Notes under the pieces: generated by a model
What the model was told of the DNA's origin: nothing
Seen by the model: only the letters and a program-made list of their open reading frames with translations
The model's database searches: none
Assembly: GCA_016280345.1 (NCBI GenBank)
Contig: JAEEGN010000069.1
Span: 1 to 43,231, forward strand
Length of the DNA: 43,231 nt
Direction: 5' to 3'
Source of the DNA: Selenomonadaceae bacterium
GTDB taxonomy: Bacteria > Bacillota > Negativicutes > Selenomonadales > Selenomonadaceae
Position numbers and translations under genes: made by a program
Shown: positions 1 to 11,296 of the stretch, in pieces
How the letters are laid out: every line of letters begins with the position of its first letter
Numbering within the stretch: position 1 is the stretch's first letter

Positions 1-2370
1 AATCTTGACCTGCTTTTCCAGGCGCTTTCCCAGGGCAGAGAGCAAGAGAGACGCGATTTCCCGGACCTGTTCTTTCGCCAGTGAGCGGAAGATGACGATG
101 TCATCGACACGGTTCAGGAATTCCGGCCGGAAGTACTCTTTCAGGAGGTCTTTCACGGCGGTCTCGGCCTCAGTGAAGTCCTTGTTCAGGATTTCGTGGG
201 AGCCGAGGTTCGAGGTCATGATGATGACGGTATTCTTGAAGTTCACCACCCGGCCCTTGCCGTCGGTGAGGCGACCGTCGTCAAGGATTTGCAGCAGGAC
301 GTTGAAGACGTCGCGATGGGCTTTTTCGATTTCGTCCAGCAGGATGACGCTGTACGGACGGCGTCGCACCGCCTCGGTGAGCTGGCCGCCCTCGTCGTAG
401 CCGACGTAGCCCGGAGGTGCGCCGATGAGCCGGGCGACGGAGTGCTTTTCCATGTATTCCGACATATCGATGCGAATCATGCTGCGCTCGTCATCGAACA
501 GCGCCTCGGCCAGAGTCTTCGCCAGCTCGGTCTTGCCGACGCCGGTGGGGCCGAGGAAGATAAAGGAGCCGATGGGGCGGTTCGGGTCCTTGATACCCGC
601 CCGGGCCCGGAGGATTGCCTGACTGACGACTTTTACCGCTTCGTCCTGGCCGACGACCCGCTGGTGCAGGACGTCTTCCAGATGGATGAGTTTCTCACGC
701 TCGCCGGTCAGCATTTTCGTGACCGGGATGCCGGTCCAGCGGCTCACGACCTCGGCGATGTCCTCCTCGCCGACTTCCTCCTTCAGCAGGCGGGAGCCTT
801 CGGCCTGCCCGGCCATCAGTGTCTCTTCCTCCTGCAGCTTCTTTTCCAGCTCCGGCAAGCGGCCGTACTTGATTTCCGAGGCTTTCATCAGAGCGCCGCC
901 GCGCTCGGCGATTTCCATCTGGTTCTTGGCCTCGTCCATTTCCTTCTTGATGGCCCGGACGCGCAGGATGGCCTGCTTCTCCGCCTCCCAGCGGCCCCGC
1001 AGCGCCGCTTCCTTGTCCTTGAGGGAGGCTTTTTCCTGGGAAAGGGCTTCAAGACGAGCCTTTGATCCATCGTCAGTTTCTTTCGTCAGCGCCTGCTCCT
1101 CAATCTCAAGCTGCATGATTTTCCGCTGCACTTCGTCGATGGGGGCGGGGACGGACTCGATCTCGGTGCGGAGTTTTGCCGCCGCCTCGTCCACCAGGTC
1201 GATGGCCTTGTCGGGCAAGAAACGGTCTGAGATGTAGCGGTCAGACAGCGTTGCCGCCGCCACCAGCGCTGCGTCGCGGATGCGGACGCCGTGATGGACC
1301 TCGTAGCGCTCTTTGAGCCCACGCAGGATGGAGATGGTGTCCTCCAGCGTCGGCTGCCCCACCATCACCGGCTGGAAGCGCCGCTCCAACGCCGTGTCCT
1401 TCTCGATGTACTTGCGGTATTCATTGAGCGTCGTAGCGCCGATACAGCGGAGTTCGCCCCGGGCCAGCATCGGCTTCAGCAAGTTGCCGGCGTCCATGGA
1501 GCCCTCCGCCGCGCCGGCACCGACGACGGTATGGACTTCGTCGATGAATAGCAGGATCTGGCCGTCGGCTTTGACGATTTCGTTCAGCACTGCCTTCAGC
1601 CGCTCCTCGAATTCGCCGCGGAACTTCGCGCCGGCCACCAGAGCGCCGAGGTCAAGGGAATACAACGTCTTGTTCTTCAGCGATTCCGGAACGTCGCCGG
1701 CTACGATGCGTCGGGCCAGTCCCTCGACGATGGCCGTCTTGCCGACACCCGGCTCGCCAATCAGCACGGGGTTGTTCTTGGTACGGCGGGACAATATCTC
1801 AATCGTCCGGCGGATTTCTTCGTCGCGGCCGATGACCGGGTCAAGCTTGCCCGCCCGGGCCGTCGCCGTAAGGTCGCGACCGTATTTCTCCAGCGATTTG
1901 TAGCCGTCCTCCGGATGGTCGCTGGTCACGTTCTGTTTGCGGTTCTTACGGATAGAACCTTGAATCTTCGCTTTTGTCAGGCCAAACTGACGGCAGACTT
2001 CCTGTACGTCGCTACTGCCGTCGCTGACGATGCCCAGAAGCAAGTGCTCGGTGCTGATGAAATCATCCTTCATGCTCCGGGCAAACTCGTCGGCCTTTGC
2101 CATGACCCGGGCCATATCGACGCCCATCGACAGCCGCTCCTGTCCCCGGACGCTGGGAATCTTGTTCAGAAGCTGCTCCAGGCGCGCCTTCATCATCGGA
2201 AGGTCTGTCTGCGCTTCCTCGAAAATCGTCCCGAGAAGCCCCTCCGGCTCCTTCGCCAGCGCCAGGAGGAGATGAGCCGAGGTGATCTCCTGGTGGTAGT
2301 GGAGCGCTGCTGCCTGCTGGGCCGCCTGCAGCGCTGCCAGGGTTTTCTGCGTGTATCGTTCTTCTCCCAT
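1..2370 (-). CDS. clpB: ATP-dependent chaperone ClpB (C-terminus truncated at window start)
   Basis: Minus-strand reading from ATG at 2370 gives [46 protein letters not shown]...; two Walker A motifs ([34 protein letters not shown]), [11 protein letters not shown], coiled-coil middle domain; AGGAGG RBS. The listed + ORFs here are antisense shadows. Confidence 0.96.
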
Positions 2371-2511: not shown

Positions 2512-2552
2512 AAAAAGCCCCGGAGCAGCGGAAGAAACCGTTGCTTCGGGGC
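2512..2552 (-). terminator. Rho-independent terminator downstream of the condensation-like gene
   Basis: Minus strand GCCCCGAAGCAACGG-TTTCTT-CCGCTGCTCCGGGGC followed by TTTTTC; 15-nt arms with few mismatches. Confidence 0.75.
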
Positions 2553-2574: not shown

Positions 2575-4446
2575 CTATGATTGCGACCAGAGGCGTTGGT
2601 ATTTTTCCATCTGCGCCAAGGCGTGCCAGATTATGTTGCGCGCCAGCTCCGGCGAGGTCTGGAGGAGATTCTGCAACGGCTCCAGAGGGATGGTCAGAAG
2701 AAGCGCTTTTTCCGACAGGACTTCGGCGACGAGGCTGACCTTCCGCTCGGGCAGAAGGATTGTCTCGTTCACCCAGCCGCCCGGCTTGATGATGTCCAAA
2801 GGGTTGTACCAGCCGTCGCCAGCATCGAGAGAGCGGGCCAGGTGCCCCTCCGCCACGAAGAGCGCGTGTTTTTCCATGATGGTCCGGGAGATGAGGTCAC
2901 CCTCGAACAGGGTCCACTGGCGGAGTGCGCGGTTAAAGAGATGGGCGGTATTTTCGGGGCAATCCCGGAGAAGCGGCAGACGGACGGAGATCTGTTGCCG
3001 ACGTTCGGTATCGTCCGCTTTACTGACAGGCTGGTGCAGGGTTTCGCCTTTCAGGCGGTCCGCCAGGCGGTTCCGGAAAAAGGAGAAAGTCTTGTCCCAA
3101 TCCGTCATGGCCTGGAGCATCGTTTCCTGATACAGCCGGGCCAACTGGGCAACGCCTCCCGGCTGGAATCGTTTTTCATCGTACAGGAAGGTCGCGGACA
3201 ACGACTGGGCGCGGTAATGGAAATAGACACCAAGCTTCATTCCCCGCGCATCCCAGGAGTTCTGGGCGACTACCTGCCCTTGGGGAGATGCCTTCGCTTT
3301 GGCATAGATACCGTCTTCCACCAGGAAATCGTAGAAGCTCAGGAAATGGTCGAAGACGGTTTCAGGCCGCCCGTTAAGCTGCCGCAGGGGATTTCCGTCG
3401 CAAAGGTCATAGAGCGGAGCGGACATCATGTTCTGCAGCTGACGCAGGGCGATTTGCTGGACAAGCTTATCGTTCGAGTATCGGGAAAGGACGGGGAGCA
3501 GGTTGAAAGCGTCGGCTGCATTCTTCGGCGGCAGCAGGCAGAAAGCTGCGGTCGGCGTCTGGTTAATGCCTTGCAGCATGAAGCTCCAGGCCGTTTGCAG
3601 GATGGCCATGAGCATCTTGCGCTCGCCCCGCGCTTTATCCAGTACCGAATCGGTCAGGGCCGCGGGAAAGGCCAGACGGTAGGATTGCTGCTGATAGTCG
3701 TCATGAGAGTCGCGAGAATAGGGAAGCGGCGGCAGAGAGGGGGCCTCAGCCAGCACCTTTTCCCAATATTCCCGGGCCGGCCCTTTGACGGGCCGGGAAC
3801 GGTCCGTCAGTGTGGCCGGCTTCTGGAGGCTTGCCGGTGGGAGGGAGGCGTCCTTTCCCATGACGAACCGGAAGAACTGCGTGATGTCAAAATAGTTGGC
3901 GATGAGCTGGGAAATCGTGACATGGACGGCGTATTCGTCCGCGGCGGTATGAAATACGGCAAAGCGGATCAGCGGACTGCGCGCGATGTCGATTTCGCGG
4001 CGCATGTCCGCCTCCATGTACTTGCCCAGGGATTCCCCAATTTTTTCCGGGGATTGATTCTTGAGGTTGAAGAAAAGGACTTCGATACTACCGTCCGATT
4101 GGAGCGGGCGCTCCTCCAGGACAATGCGCAACGTCCTCGTCCCCACTTGGCAGTAATTCGTCCGCAGGGCTTCCGACTGACGGGCCAATTCGCGCAGCCC
4201 CAGATGGAATCGCAGGGGCGTAATCTCTCCCCGGAGCTTGTAAAGGGTCTGGACAAAAAAATGCGGCGAGATAAAATTTTGCCCTTCAAAAAAGCATTTC
4301 TCGTCCGTCGATAATTCATAGATTGCTTTGATTTTACGGGCGCTGTATCCGGCGGCGCTTTTTGCCTGCGGGCCGTAAACCCGGACCAGTTCCGTCTGCT
4401 CCTCAGCCGGAAGGTCGTTGAACTCAAATCTCTTTGGTAATGGCAT
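2575..4446 (-). CDS. Condensation-domain-like protein with C-terminal cyclic-nucleotide-binding-like domain
   Basis: 623 aa. N-terminus fits the condensation/CAT-like fold (ISPHFFVQTLYKLRGEITPLRFHLGLRELARQSEALRTNYCQVG...RIVLEE) but HHxxxDG is replaced by VTISQLIANYFD. C-terminus has cNMP-binding pattern (LISRTIMEKHALFVAEGHLARSLDAGDGWYNPLDIIKPGGWVNETILLPERKVSLVAEVLSEKALLLTIPLEPLQNLLQTSPELARNII). Confidence 0.72.
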   Translation of the reverse strand: MPLPKRFEFNDLPAEEQTELVRVYGPQAKSAAGYSARKIKAIYELSTDEKCFFEGQNFISPHFFVQTLYKLRGEITPLRFHLGLRELARQSEALRTNYCQVGTRTLRIVLEERPLQSDGSIEVLFFNLKNQSPEKIGESLGKYMEADMRREIDIARSPLIRFAVFHTAADEYAVHVTISQLIANYFDITQFFRFVMGKDASLPPASLQKPATLTDRSRPVKGPAREYWEKVLAEAPSLPPLPYSRDSHDDYQQQSYRLAFPAALTDSVLDKARGERKMLMAILQTAWSFMLQGINQTPTAAFCLLPPKNAADAFNLLPVLSRYSNDKLVQQIALRQLQNMMSAPLYDLCDGNPLRQLNGRPETVFDHFLSFYDFLVEDGIYAKAKASPQGQVVAQNSWDARGMKLGVYFHYRAQSLSATFLYDEKRFQPGGVAQLARLYQETMLQAMTDWDKTFSFFRNRLADRLKGETLHQPVSKADDTERRQQISVRLPLLRDCPENTAHLFNRALRQWTLFEGDLISRTIMEKHALFVAEGHLARSLDAGDGWYNPLDIIKPGGWVNETILLPERKVSLVAEVLSEKALLLTIPLEPLQNLLQTSPELARNIIWHALAQMEKYQRLWSQS

Positions 4447-4584: not shown

Positions 4585-5889
4585 TTACGGCATCAAGTCA
4601 GCCCATTCGTAGGAAAATGACAGGGCTTCGCCGGCGGGGGTATTCTCCCAGTTCCGGCGGATGCGCTCAACCGCGTGCCCCAGCTCCGGGTAACCGGTGT
4701 TGGAGAGCAGCACGACGAACTGGTTGCTACCGTTCCTGGTCACGGCATCGCCTTTGCGGAGCGTGGTCTGGAGTACCTGATAGAATTGATCCTCCGCTTC
4801 GAGCAGCGGGAAGGTCTCGTCGTCTTCCGGGTTGAGGGAAAAGACCAGGATGCAGGCAGGTATATTGTAAATCCCCACCGTGCGACGCAGGAACCGGTAC
4901 ACCGCCTGGAAACCATCGAGAGGAAGCGCCATGGCCCCCGGCAGTTGATTCCGCTCGCCCAGGATCATTTCAATGTGGGTCAGGCTCGCGAGCTGTTCCG
5001 GCGAGAGTGCCTGGTGTTCGTCGTATATTCGGTAGCCGTGCTTGCCGTTCTGCTTCACCGAGTAAAGCATCTTGTCGACTTTCTTGTAAAGCTCGGAGAA
5101 ATGCGTCCCGTGCGCGGGAACGAAGACGCAACCCATGGAAGCCCCCAGGGGAATCATCATGTCCTCACCCATGAGGTCCTTCGCCGATTGGAGCAAACAG
5201 CGGTTGATGTATTCCGATTTATTGGCGATCCCCGCTTCATCGCACATCCCTTGGCAGAAGGCGATGAACTCGTCGCCGCCGAGCCGGCCCACCAGGTCGG
5301 ATGGACGCATCGCCGTGCGGATGATATCGGCAAAGCTGATGAGTATCTTGTCGCCCATGGAATGGCCGTAAATGTCATTGACGAGCTTGAAATTGTCGAG
5401 GTCGATCATCATGAGGGCTCCGGTCGCCTGACGGCAAACTTCCTTCAAATCGGTTTCCGCCGACGTCTTGTTCAGGAGCCCTGTCAGAGAATCCGTACTG
5501 GCGTGTCGCTTCCAGCCTTCAATTTGCTCCACGGTCTGGAGGATATTCGCGACCCGGCGCAACAGCACGTCGGGTCGAAAGGGCTTGCGGATGAAATCCA
5601 TGGCCCCATTGTCAAATCCCTTACTTTCCGCTTCTTCGTCCTGATCCGCCGTCATGAACATGAACGGGATTTGTTCCTGGTACTCTGACTGCAGTTTTTT
5701 TTGCAGCTCGTAGCCGGACATGCCAGGCATCTGGAGATCGGAAAGAACCATATCGGGGCGCTCCTGATGGTAAATCTCTATGGCCTCCGGGCCCGAGGAG
5801 GCGCAGAAAGTCTTGTATTCGCCGGACAGCATGTTTTCCGTCATCATCAGCGAAACCTTCATATCGTCCACGATCAATATTTTTTTCAT
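4585..5889 (-). CDS. Response regulator with REC, GGDEF and second degenerate GGDEF-like domain (diguanylate cyclase)
   Basis: REC: MKKILIVDDMKVSLMMTENML...DMVLSDLQMPGMSG...RKPF; GGDEF with I-site: RPSDLVGRLGGDEFIAF; C-terminal RKGDAVTRNGSNQFVVLLSN. Confidence 0.92.
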   Translation of the reverse strand: MKKILIVDDMKVSLMMTENMLSGEYKTFCASSGPEAIEIYHQERPDMVLSDLQMPGMSGYELQKKLQSEYQEQIPFMFMTADQDEEAESKGFDNGAMDFIRKPFRPDVLLRRVANILQTVEQIEGWKRHASTDSLTGLLNKTSAETDLKEVCRQATGALMMIDLDNFKLVNDIYGHSMGDKILISFADIIRTAMRPSDLVGRLGGDEFIAFCQGMCDEAGIANKSEYINRCLLQSAKDLMGEDMMIPLGASMGCVFVPAHGTHFSELYKKVDKMLYSVKQNGKHGYRIYDEHQALSPEQLASLTHIEMILGERNQLPGAMALPLDGFQAVYRFLRRTVGIYNIPACILVFSLNPEDDETFPLLEAEDQFYQVLQTTLRKGDAVTRNGSNQFVVLLSNTGYPELGHAVERIRRNWENTPAGEALSFSYEWADLMP

Positions 5890-6060: not shown

Positions 6061-6405
6061 ATGCTGACACTGGAAAACCTGAAGGAGATGGGAATGGATC
6101 CCAGCGAGGGTCTGGCCCGGTGCATGAACAACGAGGATTTCTTTTTTAAGATGGTAAAGATGGCGCTTTCCAACGAATACTTCGAGACACTGGAGAAGGC
6201 GCTGGAGGATGGCGACAAAGCCCTCGCCTTCGAAGCAGCCCACGCCCTGAAGGGCGTTGTCGGGAATCTGGCGCTTTCCCATATCTACGACCCGCTGGCG
6301 GAGATGACGGAGCTCCTGCGGGCGAGCCAGGATGCCGATTACGTCCCTATGTATCGCCCCATCAAAGCATTGCGCGACAAGCTCCTGGCCATGTGTCAGG
6401 ATTGA
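6061..6405 (+). CDS. Histidine phosphotransfer (Hpt) domain protein
   Basis: 114 aa with AFEAAHALKGVVGNLAL, the HPt phospho-acceptor helix; CGGGAGG RBS. Confidence 0.88.
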   Translation: MLTLENLKEMGMDPSEGLARCMNNEDFFFKMVKMALSNEYFETLEKALEDGDKALAFEAAHALKGVVGNLALSHIYDPLAEMTELLRASQDADYVPMYRPIKALRDKLLAMCQD

Positions 6406-6447: not shown

Positions 6448-9261
6448 ATGATGACGCATTTCAGGAACGAGTTCTACAAGAAGCTCTTCGAGTCCCTTGA
6501 GGACAACGCGGTGCTGATGCGGGTTGAGGAAGACGGCCGTTATTATCCTATCTGGTGCTCCCCCGAGTTTACCGAGATGATGGAGGGAACGGCAGAAGAG
6601 TTCATCCGATTGGAAAGTGGTGGAACCATGACCACCATCCACCCGGATGACCGGGAGGAGATCGCCTATCTTTTCCGCCACCATGTCACGAAGGCGGGCA
6701 CCAACAGCCTTGACGTTCGCAAGCGCACGATCAGGGGGCGCTGGCTCTGGGTAAATATCCATTATGCCTTCGTGGAGGAGGATGGTGTCCAGTACGCGTA
6801 CTGCAATTATTTCAACGTGACCTATATCAAGGAAGCGGAGCAGCGGGCGCAGACGCTCTACAAACGCATCCGTACCGAGTTAGAAAGCATGGGCAGTGAT
6901 AACCTGCTTTCCCTGCGGCTGAACCTGACGCAGGACAAGATCGAGGATTGCCGTAGCCACGAGCCCGGTGGTCGGGATCTCAGCGGCGGCAGCGTCCATG
7001 ATCTTTTTCGGCAACGGCTTTCCCTCCTGCTCTTCGACAAGGACCAGGCGCGCTTTTTCGAACTGTTCTCGGCGGAAAAACTTATAGAGACCTATTTTTA
7101 TGGCAACAGTACGATATCCGATGTTTTTTTCAGCCGGCGGCCCAATGGGCGGGAATGTTTCATCCGTTACAGCGTCAGGCTGCGCCAGGATCCTGTCAGT
7201 GGTGATATCATCGCTTTTGCCACGGAAAAGGACTACAACGGCGAGATGGTTAGTGAAGCACTGCTCAACAAGGCTCTGGCTGAGCAGTACGACATGATCA
7301 CCTATCTCGTAAACGGTCAGTACGGCGTCGTCATCGGTGACGCCGCCCGCATTGCGCGGGGAAGCATTTTCCCGCGGGAGAGGGACGGCAGCTATGACCG
7401 GTACCTGGCGGAGCAGGTGGCGCCGGTCCTCAGCGGGACGGAGGAGGAGAAAGCGGCATGTCTGGCGGCCCTGCGCCCGGAGCAGATCGAGAGGGAGCTG
7501 GCAGCACATGAGCCATACGCGGTGAATATCGTTTGTCAGATTGACGGCGAGACCTTCTATAAGCGGTTCGTATTCTTCCTGGTGGACCGGGAGGCGAAGT
7601 TCTATCTGCTGCTGAAGTCGGACACCACCGAAATCCAGAAGGAGCAGATCCAACGGAACGAGCAGCTCAGGAGCGTTCTCGAGGAAGCGAAGCAGGCCAA
7701 TATCGCCAAGACCGTATTCCTTTCCAACATGAGCCACGAGATACGAACGCCAATGAACGCGATTATCGGTCTGGACAGCATCGCACTGAAGGAACCGGAT
7801 CTCTCGCCCCGGATGAAAGCGCATCTCGAAAAAATCGGCGGCAGCGCCCGCCACTTGTTGAGCCTCATTAACGATATCCTGGATATGAGCCGCATCGAAA
7901 GCGGCCGCATGGTGATGAAAAAGGAGGAATTCTCGTTCAGCAGTATGCTGGAGCAGATTAATGCCATGATCAACAGCCAGTGCCAGGATAAGAAACTGCA
8001 TTACAACTGCGTCATCCAGGGGTTGGTGGACGAGTTCTACATCGGCGACGACATGAAACTCAAGCAGGTGCTGATCAACATCCTGGGCAACGCCGTGAAA
8101 TTCACGCCCCCTGGCGGGATGGTCTGCCTCATTGTGGAGCGGGTGGCGAAATTCGAGGATAAAACGACGCTGCGCTTCATCGTCCGGGACACCGGCATCG
8201 GCATGGATGCGGCGTTCCTGCCGAAGATATTCGACGCCTTCAGCCAGGAGGACGGAGCCACGACCAACAAATTCGGCGGTACCGGTCTCGGCATGGCCAT
8301 CACCAAGAATATCGTCGAGATGATGAACGGCAATATCTCCGTCACCTCGAAAAAGGGCAGGGGTTCGGAGTTCATTGTCAATGTGACACTGAAGGACAGT
8401 AACCGGGAAGATAGCGCCGGGTGTGGTTTCCGTCCCCAGGACCTCAACGTACTCATCATCGACGATGACGCCAGTGCCTGCGAACACGCCAAGCTGGTGC
8501 TGGAGGAGGTGGGCATCGCCGCCGATTTCTGCCTGAACGGACAGGATGCGCTGGACATGATCCGCCTGGGGCACGCCCGGCGCGACGACTACAACATGAT
8601 TTTGATGGATTACAAGATGCCGGAGCAGGACGGCCTCGCCGTTACCCGCGAGATTCGGAAGATCGTAGGCGAGGAATCCACCGTCATTATCCTTACTGCC
8701 TACAACTGGGACAACATCATCGAGGAAGCCATTGACGCCGGGGTTGACAGTTTCATGGCGAAGCCGCTCTTCGCTTCGAATGTCCTGTCCGGTTTCCGGC
8801 AGGTGCTGGCCCGCAAGAACATCTGCCTGACGCAAAAGCGCCGCAAGGCCGACCTCGCCGGCCGTCATGTTCTCCTGGCGGAGGATATGCTGGTCAACGC
8901 GGAAATCATGAAGGAAATTCTTGCCATGCGGCAGATGAAAGTCGATCACGCCGAGAACGGTCAGATGGCGGTGAGGATGTTTTCCGAGAGCCCGCTAGGC
9001 CATTACGATGCCGTCCTGATGGATGTGCGGATGCCGGTGATGGACGGGCTCAAAGCGATGGCGGCCATCCGGGCGCTACCGCGTCCCGACAGCCGTGTCG
9101 TGCCCATCATCGCCATGACGGCCAACGCCTTTGACGAGGACGTACAGCGTTCTTTGCAGGCGGGCATGAACGCGCATCTTTCGAAACCCGTGGAACCTGA
9201 CCACTTGTATGAAACACTGGAGAGCCTGATTGCCGACGAAGGAGGGGAAACGAATGGATGA
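6448..9261 (+). CDS. Hybrid sensor histidine kinase (PAS-type N-terminus, HisKA, HATPase, two REC domains)
   Basis: H box SNMSHEIRTPMNAIIGL; ATPase motifs ILGNAVKFTPPGG, DTGIGMD, GGTGLGMAI; REC LNVLIIDDD...ILMDYKMP and RHVLLAEDM...VLMDVRMPVMDG. Confidence 0.94.
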   Translation: MMTHFRNEFYKKLFESLEDNAVLMRVEEDGRYYPIWCSPEFTEMMEGTAEEFIRLESGGTMTTIHPDDREEIAYLFRHHVTKAGTNSLDVRKRTIRGRWLWVNIHYAFVEEDGVQYAYCNYFNVTYIKEAEQRAQTLYKRIRTELESMGSDNLLSLRLNLTQDKIEDCRSHEPGGRDLSGGSVHDLFRQRLSLLLFDKDQARFFELFSAEKLIETYFYGNSTISDVFFSRRPNGRECFIRYSVRLRQDPVSGDIIAFATEKDYNGEMVSEALLNKALAEQYDMITYLVNGQYGVVIGDAARIARGSIFPRERDGSYDRYLAEQVAPVLSGTEEEKAACLAALRPEQIERELAAHEPYAVNIVCQIDGETFYKRFVFFLVDREAKFYLLLKSDTTEIQKEQIQRNEQLRSVLEEAKQANIAKTVFLSNMSHEIRTPMNAIIGLDSIALKEPDLSPRMKAHLEKIGGSARHLLSLINDILDMSRIESGRMVMKKEEFSFSSMLEQINAMINSQCQDKKLHYNCVIQGLVDEFYIGDDMKLKQVLINILGNAVKFTPPGGMVCLIVERVAKFEDKTTLRFIVRDTGIGMDAAFLPKIFDAFSQEDGATTNKFGGTGLGMAITKNIVEMMNGNISVTSKKGRGSEFIVNVTLKDSNREDSAGCGFRPQDLNVLIIDDDASACEHAKLVLEEVGIAADFCLNGQDALDMIRLGHARRDDYNMILMDYKMPEQDGLAVTREIRKIVGEESTVIILTAYNWDNIIEEAIDAGVDSFMAKPLFASNVLSGFRQVLARKNICLTQKRRKADLAGRHVLLAEDMLVNAEIMKEILAMRQMKVDHAENGQMAVRMFSESPLGHYDAVLMDVRMPVMDGLKAMAAIRALPRPDSRVVPIIAMTANAFDEDVQRSLQAGMNAHLSKPVEPDHLYETLESLIADEGGETNG

Positions 9262-11296
9262 GATAACGCTGCCGATGTTGGAACGGATGGCGAAGCGTTT
9301 TCCCGGAGGATTCTTTATTTACCGCGCCAGCGCGCCGGAGGAAATCCTGTTCATCAATGACGTCATGCTGGATATCTTTGGCTGCCGGACGCTGGAGGAG
9401 TTCAAGGAACTGACCGGATATACCTTCCAGGGGCTGGTGCATCCGGACGATCTGGATGCGGTGGAGGATTCCATCCATACCCAGATCGGCCGGAGCGATA
9501 AGCAACTTGATTACGTGGAGTACCGTATCATCCGCCGGGATGGTAGCGTCCGCTGGGTTGATGACTACGGCCGTCTCGTCCATACGGAAAGCGACGGCGA
9601 CTTGTTTTACGTCTTTATTCGCGACATTACCGAGGAGCGGGCGGCCCGCCGGGAGAATATCCGCCGGGCCCGGGTCATCGAGGGCCTGAGCGTCGAATCC
9701 ACCTCCATCTACCTGCTGGATCTCGTCAGCGGCAGCATGCACCCCTATCGCCTGCAGAACGAGACATTCCAGCGCATCGTCAGCGAGCTGGGCATTGCCC
9801 CGGACGAGCCGCCCGACTGGTCGCGCGTCCTGAACGCCTATGCCGGGCGCTTCATCATTCCGGAGGATCGGCCCCTCTATCTGAAGGAGATTGCCAAAGA
9901 GCGTATTCTGGAGCGACTCGGGAAAGAGCGCCACTACACCGTTACCTACCGTTGCCCCGGCCAGGACGATACTTCTCCGGTTTATATGGAAATGTTCATC
10001 GTCCGCATCGACGATGACCGCCAGATACGCAACGCGGTCATGGGGTACCGCGATGTCACCGGCCAGGTCGTGCGGGTGCAGAAGGAAATGAAGGAAAAGA
10101 TGGACATGGAACTGGCGTTGGAACAGGAAAAGCACGCCAATGAGGCCAAGTCCGCTTTCCTGTTTAGCATTTCCCATGATATCCGTACCCCGATGAACGC
10201 CATCATGGGCTTTACCGATCTTGCCAAGCGCCACATGGATGACCCGGCGCTTTTGCGGGACTATCTCGGCAAGGTGGATGAGGCCAACCATCACTTGCTG
10301 GCCCTCATTGATGATCTTTTGGAAATGAGCCGCCTTGACTACGGTCGGGTTGAGATCAAGACCGAGCCGTCAGACCTCGCCCGACAGATCGATATGGTTC
10401 TCGACATGTTCAAGCCGCAGGTTGAGGAGAAATCCCTCCGGCTGGTCCGGGACATCGTCATCCCGCCGCAGCCCGTCTATCTTGATGGTTTGCGTTTCCG
10501 CCGGATTGTCGGCAACATCGTGGGCAACGCGGTGAAGTTCACGTCGCCCGGGGGAGAGGTTAAGGTGATCGCACGCCAGAAGCGTGTCTCGGAGTCTGGC
10601 TATGCCCGCTACGAGATCACGGTCGCCGATAACGGTATCGGCATGACCGAGGAATTCATGACGCGGATGTTCGAGTCTTTCGAGCGGGAGGAAAGCGCGA
10701 CCAAGACTGGATATCTCGGCACCGGCCTCGGCCTCACCATCACCAAGCGCCTGCTTGACATCATGGGCGGTTCGATCGCTGTCACCAGCAAGAAGGGCGA
10801 GGGGTCATCCTTCGTTATCGACCTGCCGTTGAAGCTCGCGGATAAAGCTTCGTTGCCCGGCGAGGATCATTCACTGGCGGAGGAACCGCGGAAAGCCGCC
10901 GGGGAGTATCGTATCCTGCTGGTCGAGGACATCGATGTCAATCGAATCCTGGCGGAGACGATGCTCAGCGAGGCCGGCTTCCTGGTGGAGTCTGTTCCCG
11001 ACGGCAGTGACGCCGTGGAAGCCGTCCGCCGTCACCGGCCCTGGTATTATGATATCGTGCTGATGGATATTCAGATGCCGGTCATGAACGGTTACGAGGC
11101 GACGCGCCTCATCCGCGCCCTGGACCGGGAGGACACCCGCAGTCTGCCAATCATCGCCCTCTCGGCCAACGCCCGGGAACAGGACCGGCAAATGAGCATG
11201 GAAAGCGGCATGAATTCCCATGTATCGAAGCCTTTCGACATCGCCCAGCTAATCCATACAGTGAATGAGCATATCGCTGCCAACCGCCGCGCGTAA
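9254..11296 (+). CDS. Hybrid sensor histidine kinase (PAS, HisKA, HATPase, REC)
   Basis: ATG at 9254 after GGAGGGG, overlapping the upstream stop. PAS YRASAPEEILFINDVMLDIFG...HPDDLDAVE; FSISHDIRTPMNAIMGF; IVGNAVKFTSPGG; GTGLGLTI; REC YRILLVEDIDVN...VLMDIQMPVMNG. Confidence 0.94.
   Translation: MDEITLPMLERMAKRFPGGFFIYRASAPEEILFINDVMLDIFGCRTLEEFKELTGYTFQGLVHPDDLDAVEDSIHTQIGRSDKQLDYVEYRIIRRDGSVRWVDDYGRLVHTESDGDLFYVFIRDITEERAARRENIRRARVIEGLSVESTSIYLLDLVSGSMHPYRLQNETFQRIVSELGIAPDEPPDWSRVLNAYAGRFIIPEDRPLYLKEIAKERILERLGKERHYTVTYRCPGQDDTSPVYMEMFIVRIDDDRQIRNAVMGYRDVTGQVVRVQKEMKEKMDMELALEQEKHANEAKSAFLFSISHDIRTPMNAIMGFTDLAKRHMDDPALLRDYLGKVDEANHHLLALIDDLLEMSRLDYGRVEIKTEPSDLARQIDMVLDMFKPQVEEKSLRLVRDIVIPPQPVYLDGLRFRRIVGNIVGNAVKFTSPGGEVKVIARQKRVSESGYARYEITVADNGIGMTEEFMTRMFESFEREESATKTGYLGTGLGLTITKRLLDIMGGSIAVTSKKGEGSSFVIDLPLKLADKASLPGEDHSLAEEPRKAAGEYRILLVEDIDVNRILAETMLSEAGFLVESVPDGSDAVEAVRRHRPWYYDIVLMDIQMPVMNGYEATRLIRALDREDTRSLPIIALSANAREQDRQMSMESGMNSHVSKPFDIAQLIHTVNEHIAANRRA

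Follow-up and report, generated by a model that had tools for sequence, protein, structure and literature searches.

The gene at positions 2575-4446 (minus strand) of the window, by which we mean the whole 43,231-nucleotide stretch analyzed here, encodes an NRPS-type condensation domain joined to a CNB (cyclic-nucleotide-binding) fold, and this architecture, which we call C-CNB, is confirmed by profile searches and structural models. Judged by its sequence, C-CNB is a pseudoenzyme that keeps the condensation fold, has lost the catalytic His and the Asp-Gly, and carries a CNB domain without the cyclic-nucleotide-binding residues. On balance, and with somewhat better than even confidence, we interpret C-CNB as a pseudo-condensation target of STAS partner switching, which in the window is wired to c-di-GMP signaling. 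Evolution appears to have converted the fold of a metabolic enzyme into a signaling part.

The open reading frame has 623 codons and no internal stops, at the coordinates originally given for it, and the strand is minus. Full-length homologues are found at E<1e-100 in many genomes, which shows that the frame is not a chance one. An opposite-strand frame of 577 aa at 2581-4314 (+) is taken for a mere shadow of the minus-strand frame, whose homology is strong. An NRPS remnant or pseudogene can be eliminated because the frame is intact, is one of three C-CNB copies in the source genome, and belongs to a broad family of full-length proteins. NCBIfam gives weak matches only, to NRPS and family-2B encapsulin types. 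When 400 related genomes were searched, 125 gave matches, mostly full-length members within one bacterial family, and the distant matches elsewhere in the class are ordinary NRPSs. The family is large, with proteins of ∼600 aa chiefly from rumen Selenomonadaceae; named records, all from this family of bacteria and mostly from the rumen, include Selenomonas ruminantium, Anaerovibrio, Quinella, and Schwartzia. No two-domain form was found outside the Negativicutes, where a survey of 399 genomes from the whole phylum added nothing but NRPS frames of the ordinary kind, and a literature search for the condensation-CNB architecture returned no match. Tandem duplicates of the C-CNB gene occur at three loci (L105:7079-10812, L103:7138-10818, L062:9079-12880).

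The degenerate condensation fold covers residues ∼38-455 (3082-4335, minus strand), in line with the original prediction for the N-terminal ∼450 aa. Pfam Condensation (PF00668) matches the window protein at E=5.5e-18 (65 bits; cut-off 30.6) and all 72 of the 72 family members, and the family profile matches NRPS C domains in the PDB down to 1e-40. Modeled in full by AlphaFold (pLDDT 86, pTM 0.82), the protein has the CAT-like, two-lobed fold, and its top Foldseek match is the SrfA-C condensation domain (8f7h, 6e-24). Superposition on NRPS condensation domains leaves an rmsd near 10 Å across the whole fold, so the lobes of C-CNB probably have a different arrangement relative to each other.

The loss of HHxxxDG is borne out by alignment. 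The site reads SQLIANY (residues 179-185; 3892-3912, minus strand), so that HH aligns to Ser179-Gln180 and DG to Asn184-Tyr185, where NRPS C domains of the same class have HHIIMDGW; the second His of a catalytic condensation domain is therefore missing from the window protein. The motif is present in none of the 72 aligned members, nor is the first His. At the position of the second, catalytic His there is Gln in 53/72 and His in 2/72, with other residues in the remainder; both members with His are without DG, which is absent from nearly all 72. C-CNB retains many of the structural residues of condensation domains, and the invariance of Asn560, His367, Phe371, and others shows that some other property is conserved. 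A motif scan of the 43-kb window found no adenylation or carrier domain, as had been noted from the sequence, and the same scan of 119 family loci yielded a single adenylation-like motif and none of the carrier type. These observations bear on the possibility that C-CNB is still an active acyl- or aminoacyl-transferase, working through other residues on a thioester, carrier-bound or of CoA, that another part of the cell provides. The fold and its retained structural residues speak for such an enzyme, but the prevalence of Gln and variable residues at the catalytic position, the near-complete loss of DG, and the scan of the 119 loci speak against it, and we regard it as the least probable of the readings considered here.

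The last ∼130 aa had been read as a CNB beta-roll, and this also holds. Pfam cNMP_binding reaches the window protein at E=0.0033, short of its cut-off, and matches 70/72 family members (best 5.9e-06); the C-terminal profile of the family matches PKG II CNB-B. The C-terminal 159 aa modeled alone (pLDDT 89) return CNB domains of PKG (CNB-B), HcpR, and MlotiK1 among the best Foldseek matches (∼1e-8, TM up to ∼0.75), placing the fold at residues ∼476-598 (2653-3021, minus strand). Structure prediction thus recovered both folds. The phosphate-binding cassette (residues 559-576; 2719-2772, minus strand) is altered to V-N-E ... L-V-A-E-V, with VNE where FGE is usual, as had been noted from the sequence, and a hydrophobic residue takes the position of the conserved Arg. 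The cassette Arg of CNB domains holds the phosphate. Across the family, the cassette Gly is replaced by Asn560 in 72/72 members, Arg is found in 0/72, its position being taken by Leu, Ile, and similar residues, and Glu is kept in 43/72, so that the FGE...R(S/T)A signature of a cyclic-nucleotide-binding domain is not found. The models also agree that no HTH of the CRP/FNR type follows the CNB domain; they place there a single conserved C-terminal helix (2581-2652, minus strand; family consensus MEKYQRLWxQS, from alignment and AlphaFold). Taken over 72 members, the motif losses make it unlikely that C-CNB either catalyzes condensation or binds cNMPs in the canonical way.

In trees, every family member falls in a single clade (SH-aLRT 99-100). 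Its nearest outgroup (support 91, in a tree whose branch order comes from a short search without bootstraps) is a 694-aa protein of another genome of the same class, G294, with a full condensation domain (2.4e-78) and an above-threshold CNB domain. This homologue carries the nearly intact motif PHITFDG and is flanked by genes for a multi-domain NRPS, a carrier protein, and a phosphopantetheinyl transferase. Early-branching C-CNB members read PQMIADGW or PQIIADGW at the same site. The outgroup indicates an NRPS ancestry, and together with these intermediate motifs it points to the most likely origin of the clade, a protein with the same two domains that was encoded, and probably at work, in an NRPS cluster and in which His was replaced by Gln before DG was lost. 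The claim that the protein lies outside any NRPS cluster is thus correct for the clade and fails for its deep homologue, whose retained motif is a further point in favor of transferase activity. Three observations support the broader claim, that the protein is a non-catalytic effector and not a biosynthetic enzyme: the clade-wide motif loss, the lack of NRPS genes around the Selenomonadaceae copies, and the recurrent signaling neighbors. Condensation-only paralogues without the CNB domain were also seen (L066:9471-11051, L067:9018-10484, L068:1327-2976).

In the window, a 434-aa receiver-GGDEF protein (4585-5889, minus strand), with its GGDEF motif and receiver Asp present, is encoded on the same strand directly upstream of the C-CNB gene, as originally noted. 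The gap is 138 bp and contains no terminator-like site on the minus strand; one such site, a consensus match only, lies just 3' of the C-CNB gene (2518-2533, minus strand). Divergently encoded are an Hpt phosphotransfer protein (6061-6405, plus strand; PF01627, 3.2e-08) and, from Pfam matches, two hybrid histidine kinases on the plus strand, the first with PAS, HisKA, HATPase, and two receivers (6448-9261) and the second with PAS, HisKA, HATPase, and one receiver (9230-11296). A ClpC-type AAA gene (1-2370, minus strand) with its own promoter-like site comes after the C-CNB gene. Chaperone-type genes (ClpC-like AAA, DnaK) lie 3' of the C-CNB gene in a few genomes (the window, L055:2887-4743, L057). 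At a paralogue locus of the same genome the order is STAS, receiver-GGDEF, C-CNB, hybrid kinase.

The receiver-GGDEF gene suggested a role for c-di-GMP, and some CRP-family proteins do bind c-di-GMP. The CNB domain might then bind c-di-GMP made by the upstream cyclase, or another nucleotide, and alter the condensation-fold part, a reading consistent with the confirmed CNB fold and with direct receiver-GGDEF adjacency at two of the three own-genome copies. We consider it improbable, however, as no member keeps an unaltered cassette, Asn being invariant there and Arg absent, and other genes occupy the neighboring position in most family genomes. Direct adjacency was found at none of the other loci surveyed and is confined to the source genome, which rules out a general c-di-GMP operon. 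The original interpretation therefore stands in part: the non-catalytic effector is supported, and its emphasis on c-di-GMP holds for the source genome, the general partner being a switch of STAS, RsbW, and RsbU.

Clustering of neighbors followed by Pfam identified the recurrent ones as a SpoIIE phosphatase with dCache-HAMP (RsbU type), a STAS protein, and a HATPase_c_2 kinase (RsbW type). The serine phosphosite of the STAS neighbors (ASAGL/SSAGL type) and the ATP-binding boxes of the RsbW neighbors are intact. Profiles built from these neighbors find a partner-switch gene ≤6 kb away in 26/80 loci. An immediate same-strand partner-switch neighbor occurs in 22/88 clusters at 90% identity, 14/45 at 60%, 8/32 at 50%, and 7/26 at 45%, which is far beyond chance under a background that we assumed, as an estimate, to be ∼1-3%; for the clusters at 60% and 45% the expectation is roughly 1-2%. 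Some 25 gene orders were listed, among them RsbU-STAS-RsbW-gene, RsbW-STAS-RsbU-gene, gene-STAS, gene-STAS-RsbW, gene-RsbW-STAS, RsbU-STAS-gene, and gene-STAS-RsbU-RsbU; orders that differ this widely argue for repeated selection of the link and not for one frozen operon. RsbU-STAS-RsbW-(C-CNB) operons are found at L146 and L148, and a STAS-RsbW pair lies just upstream of the C-CNB gene at L109, L112, and L145; in some operons the C-CNB gene occupies the sigma-B slot. Stand-alone RsbW is found in 14/15 genomes with the family and 2/22 without it (p=2.7e-7, a value too small because the genomes are related), and STAS in 12/12 with and 1/7 without, where kinship likewise inflates the significance.

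We note that about two thirds of the loci have no partner-switch gene adjoining the C-CNB gene, and that many of the surveyed genomes are fragmented assemblies in which gene contexts may be cut. A fixed operon partner can be ruled out, as the neighbors vary and include housekeeping genes (RNase E/G, riboflavin kinase, DnaK, and 2-oxoacid oxidoreductase). The window copy itself has no partner-switch gene beside it; the family is encoded with the STAS protein, RsbW-type kinase, and RsbU-type phosphatase, and the window copy shares this link only through its paralogue. Within the ∼1.5 kb read on each side, none of the nine sigma-70 genes examined in the source genome has a partner-switch gene beside it. 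At one RsbW locus the adjoining gene encodes a 612-aa protein with weak, sub-threshold NCBIfam similarity to radical-SAM/SPASM proteins (L162:13493-15328).

The same gene orders could be read in the opposite direction, with C-CNB sensing a ligand or serving as a scaffold on the input side of the partner switch, in the manner of a stressosome. Two binding folds with no output domain, variable neighbors, and a gene that stands first or last in its operons would suit such an input, but the RsbU proteins already have a dCache sensor and the position 3' of RsbW resembles the sigma-factor slot, and we think this arrangement about as improbable as nucleotide control. In the preferred reading, C-CNB as the target, RsbU would take in a signal through its dCache domain and then dephosphorylate STAS, so that the membrane phosphatase would reverse the phosphorylation of the STAS serine by the RsbW-type kinase. 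The state of STAS would set whether the C-CNB protein is held, and C-CNB would take the place of the sigma factor or diguanylate cyclase in known partner switches. C-CNB is most likely a direct binding target of STAS; we prefer contact with STAS over contact with RsbW because at many loci STAS adjoins the gene and RsbW is absent. We infer this contact, its dependence on phosphorylation, and the downstream action of C-CNB. Ligands may be sensed at the old condensation tunnel or the altered CNB pocket. In the window, the same device would be tied to a phosphorelay of two hybrid kinases and Hpt via the upstream receiver-diguanylate cyclase, and in this lineage the co-encoded receiver-cyclase may belong to the same complex.

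A separate ∼530-aa family in the same bacteria consists of STAS fused to a condensation domain in which (Y)HxxxDG is kept. By the usual fusion argument, these natural fusions support a physical interaction of STAS with condensation folds. They are encoded at L216:7355-12592, L177:9165-14401, and L219:2285-7511, also at L214, L215, L218, L220, and L221, and several are RsbU-adjacent. The fusion is found in 11/101 genomes, and all 11 also have the C-CNB family. In three genomes it is followed by a 1205-1210-aa AMP-binding/PP-binding/Condensation (A-PCP-C) NRPS, and in several these genes precede one for a MATE transporter that carries a fused RsbW-type domain. H...DG kept next to an A-PCP-C NRPS makes condensation chemistry under partner-switch control plausible there, which is the remaining point in favor of an active transferase. 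The condensation domain of the fusions is not sister to the C-CNB clade, and it therefore seems that partner switching took up condensation folds on two occasions. Rather tentatively, at somewhat less than even confidence, we suggest two recruitments in Selenomonadaceae, one of the C-CNB pseudoenzyme in place of a sigma factor as target and one of STAS-condensation fusions with A-PCP-C NRPS and MATE-RsbW. If so, a small peptide assembly line and its exporter would be switched directly by Ser/Thr phosphorylation. MATE proteins with a C-terminal RsbW-type HATPase_c_2, mostly slightly under the Pfam cut-off, are encoded at L110:10797-12611, L157:3253-4989, L160:9847-11748, L161:3176-4978, and L216:12592-14349, and often precede genes for an unannotated ∼340-aa protein and RsbU. 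STAS is also fused to an APH-type phosphotransferase domain in a 432-aa protein (L222:6553-7848).

Partner switches are known to act on sigma factors and on a small number of cyclases or other regulators, and a pseudo-condensation target would illustrate how a fold from biosynthesis comes to serve in signaling. A large family without a name, found in dominant bacteria of the rumen (Selenomonas, Anaerovibrio, and Quinella relatives), would also gain a function. Our literature search found no paper that relevantly links condensation domains to STAS or to partner switching.

C-CNB shares its fold and many structural residues with NRPS condensation domains (PF00668, SrfA-C 8f7h); unlike them, it stands alone with a CNB domain, has no NRPS around it, lacks HHxxxDG clade-wide, and has signaling neighbors. 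The X domains of glycopeptide NRPSs, which are non-catalytic and bind partner proteins, have the loss of catalysis in common with C-CNB. With the CNB domains of CRP/FNR and PKA/PKG (PF00027) it shares the beta-roll (HcpR, PKG II CNB-B, MlotiK1), whereas it has no HTH, carries Asn for the cassette Gly and Leu/Ile for Arg, and is attached to a condensation fold. In Pseudomonas aeruginosa, the HptB pathway has a STAS protein, HsbA, that binds the cyclase HsbD (PMC5085249; PMC8457831), and SiaABCD is a precedent for such a partner switch (PMC8457831). HptB-HsbR-HsbA-HsbD and SiaABCD have a target that is not a sigma factor and combine a phosphorelay or Hpt with a diguanylate cyclase in one pathway. 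The hybrid kinases, Hpt, receiver protein, STAS, and diguanylate cyclase of the window and paralogue loci resemble HptB-HsbA-HsbD in their parts alone, and the HptB and Sia systems differ from C-CNB loci in that the target is the cyclase itself, with no condensation or CNB protein. SigB-type switches (RsbU, RsbV, RsbW, sigma-B) have the same types of phosphatase, STAS protein, and kinase in the same operon order; in contrast to them, the position of the sigma factor is held at C-CNB loci by the pseudo-condensation protein.
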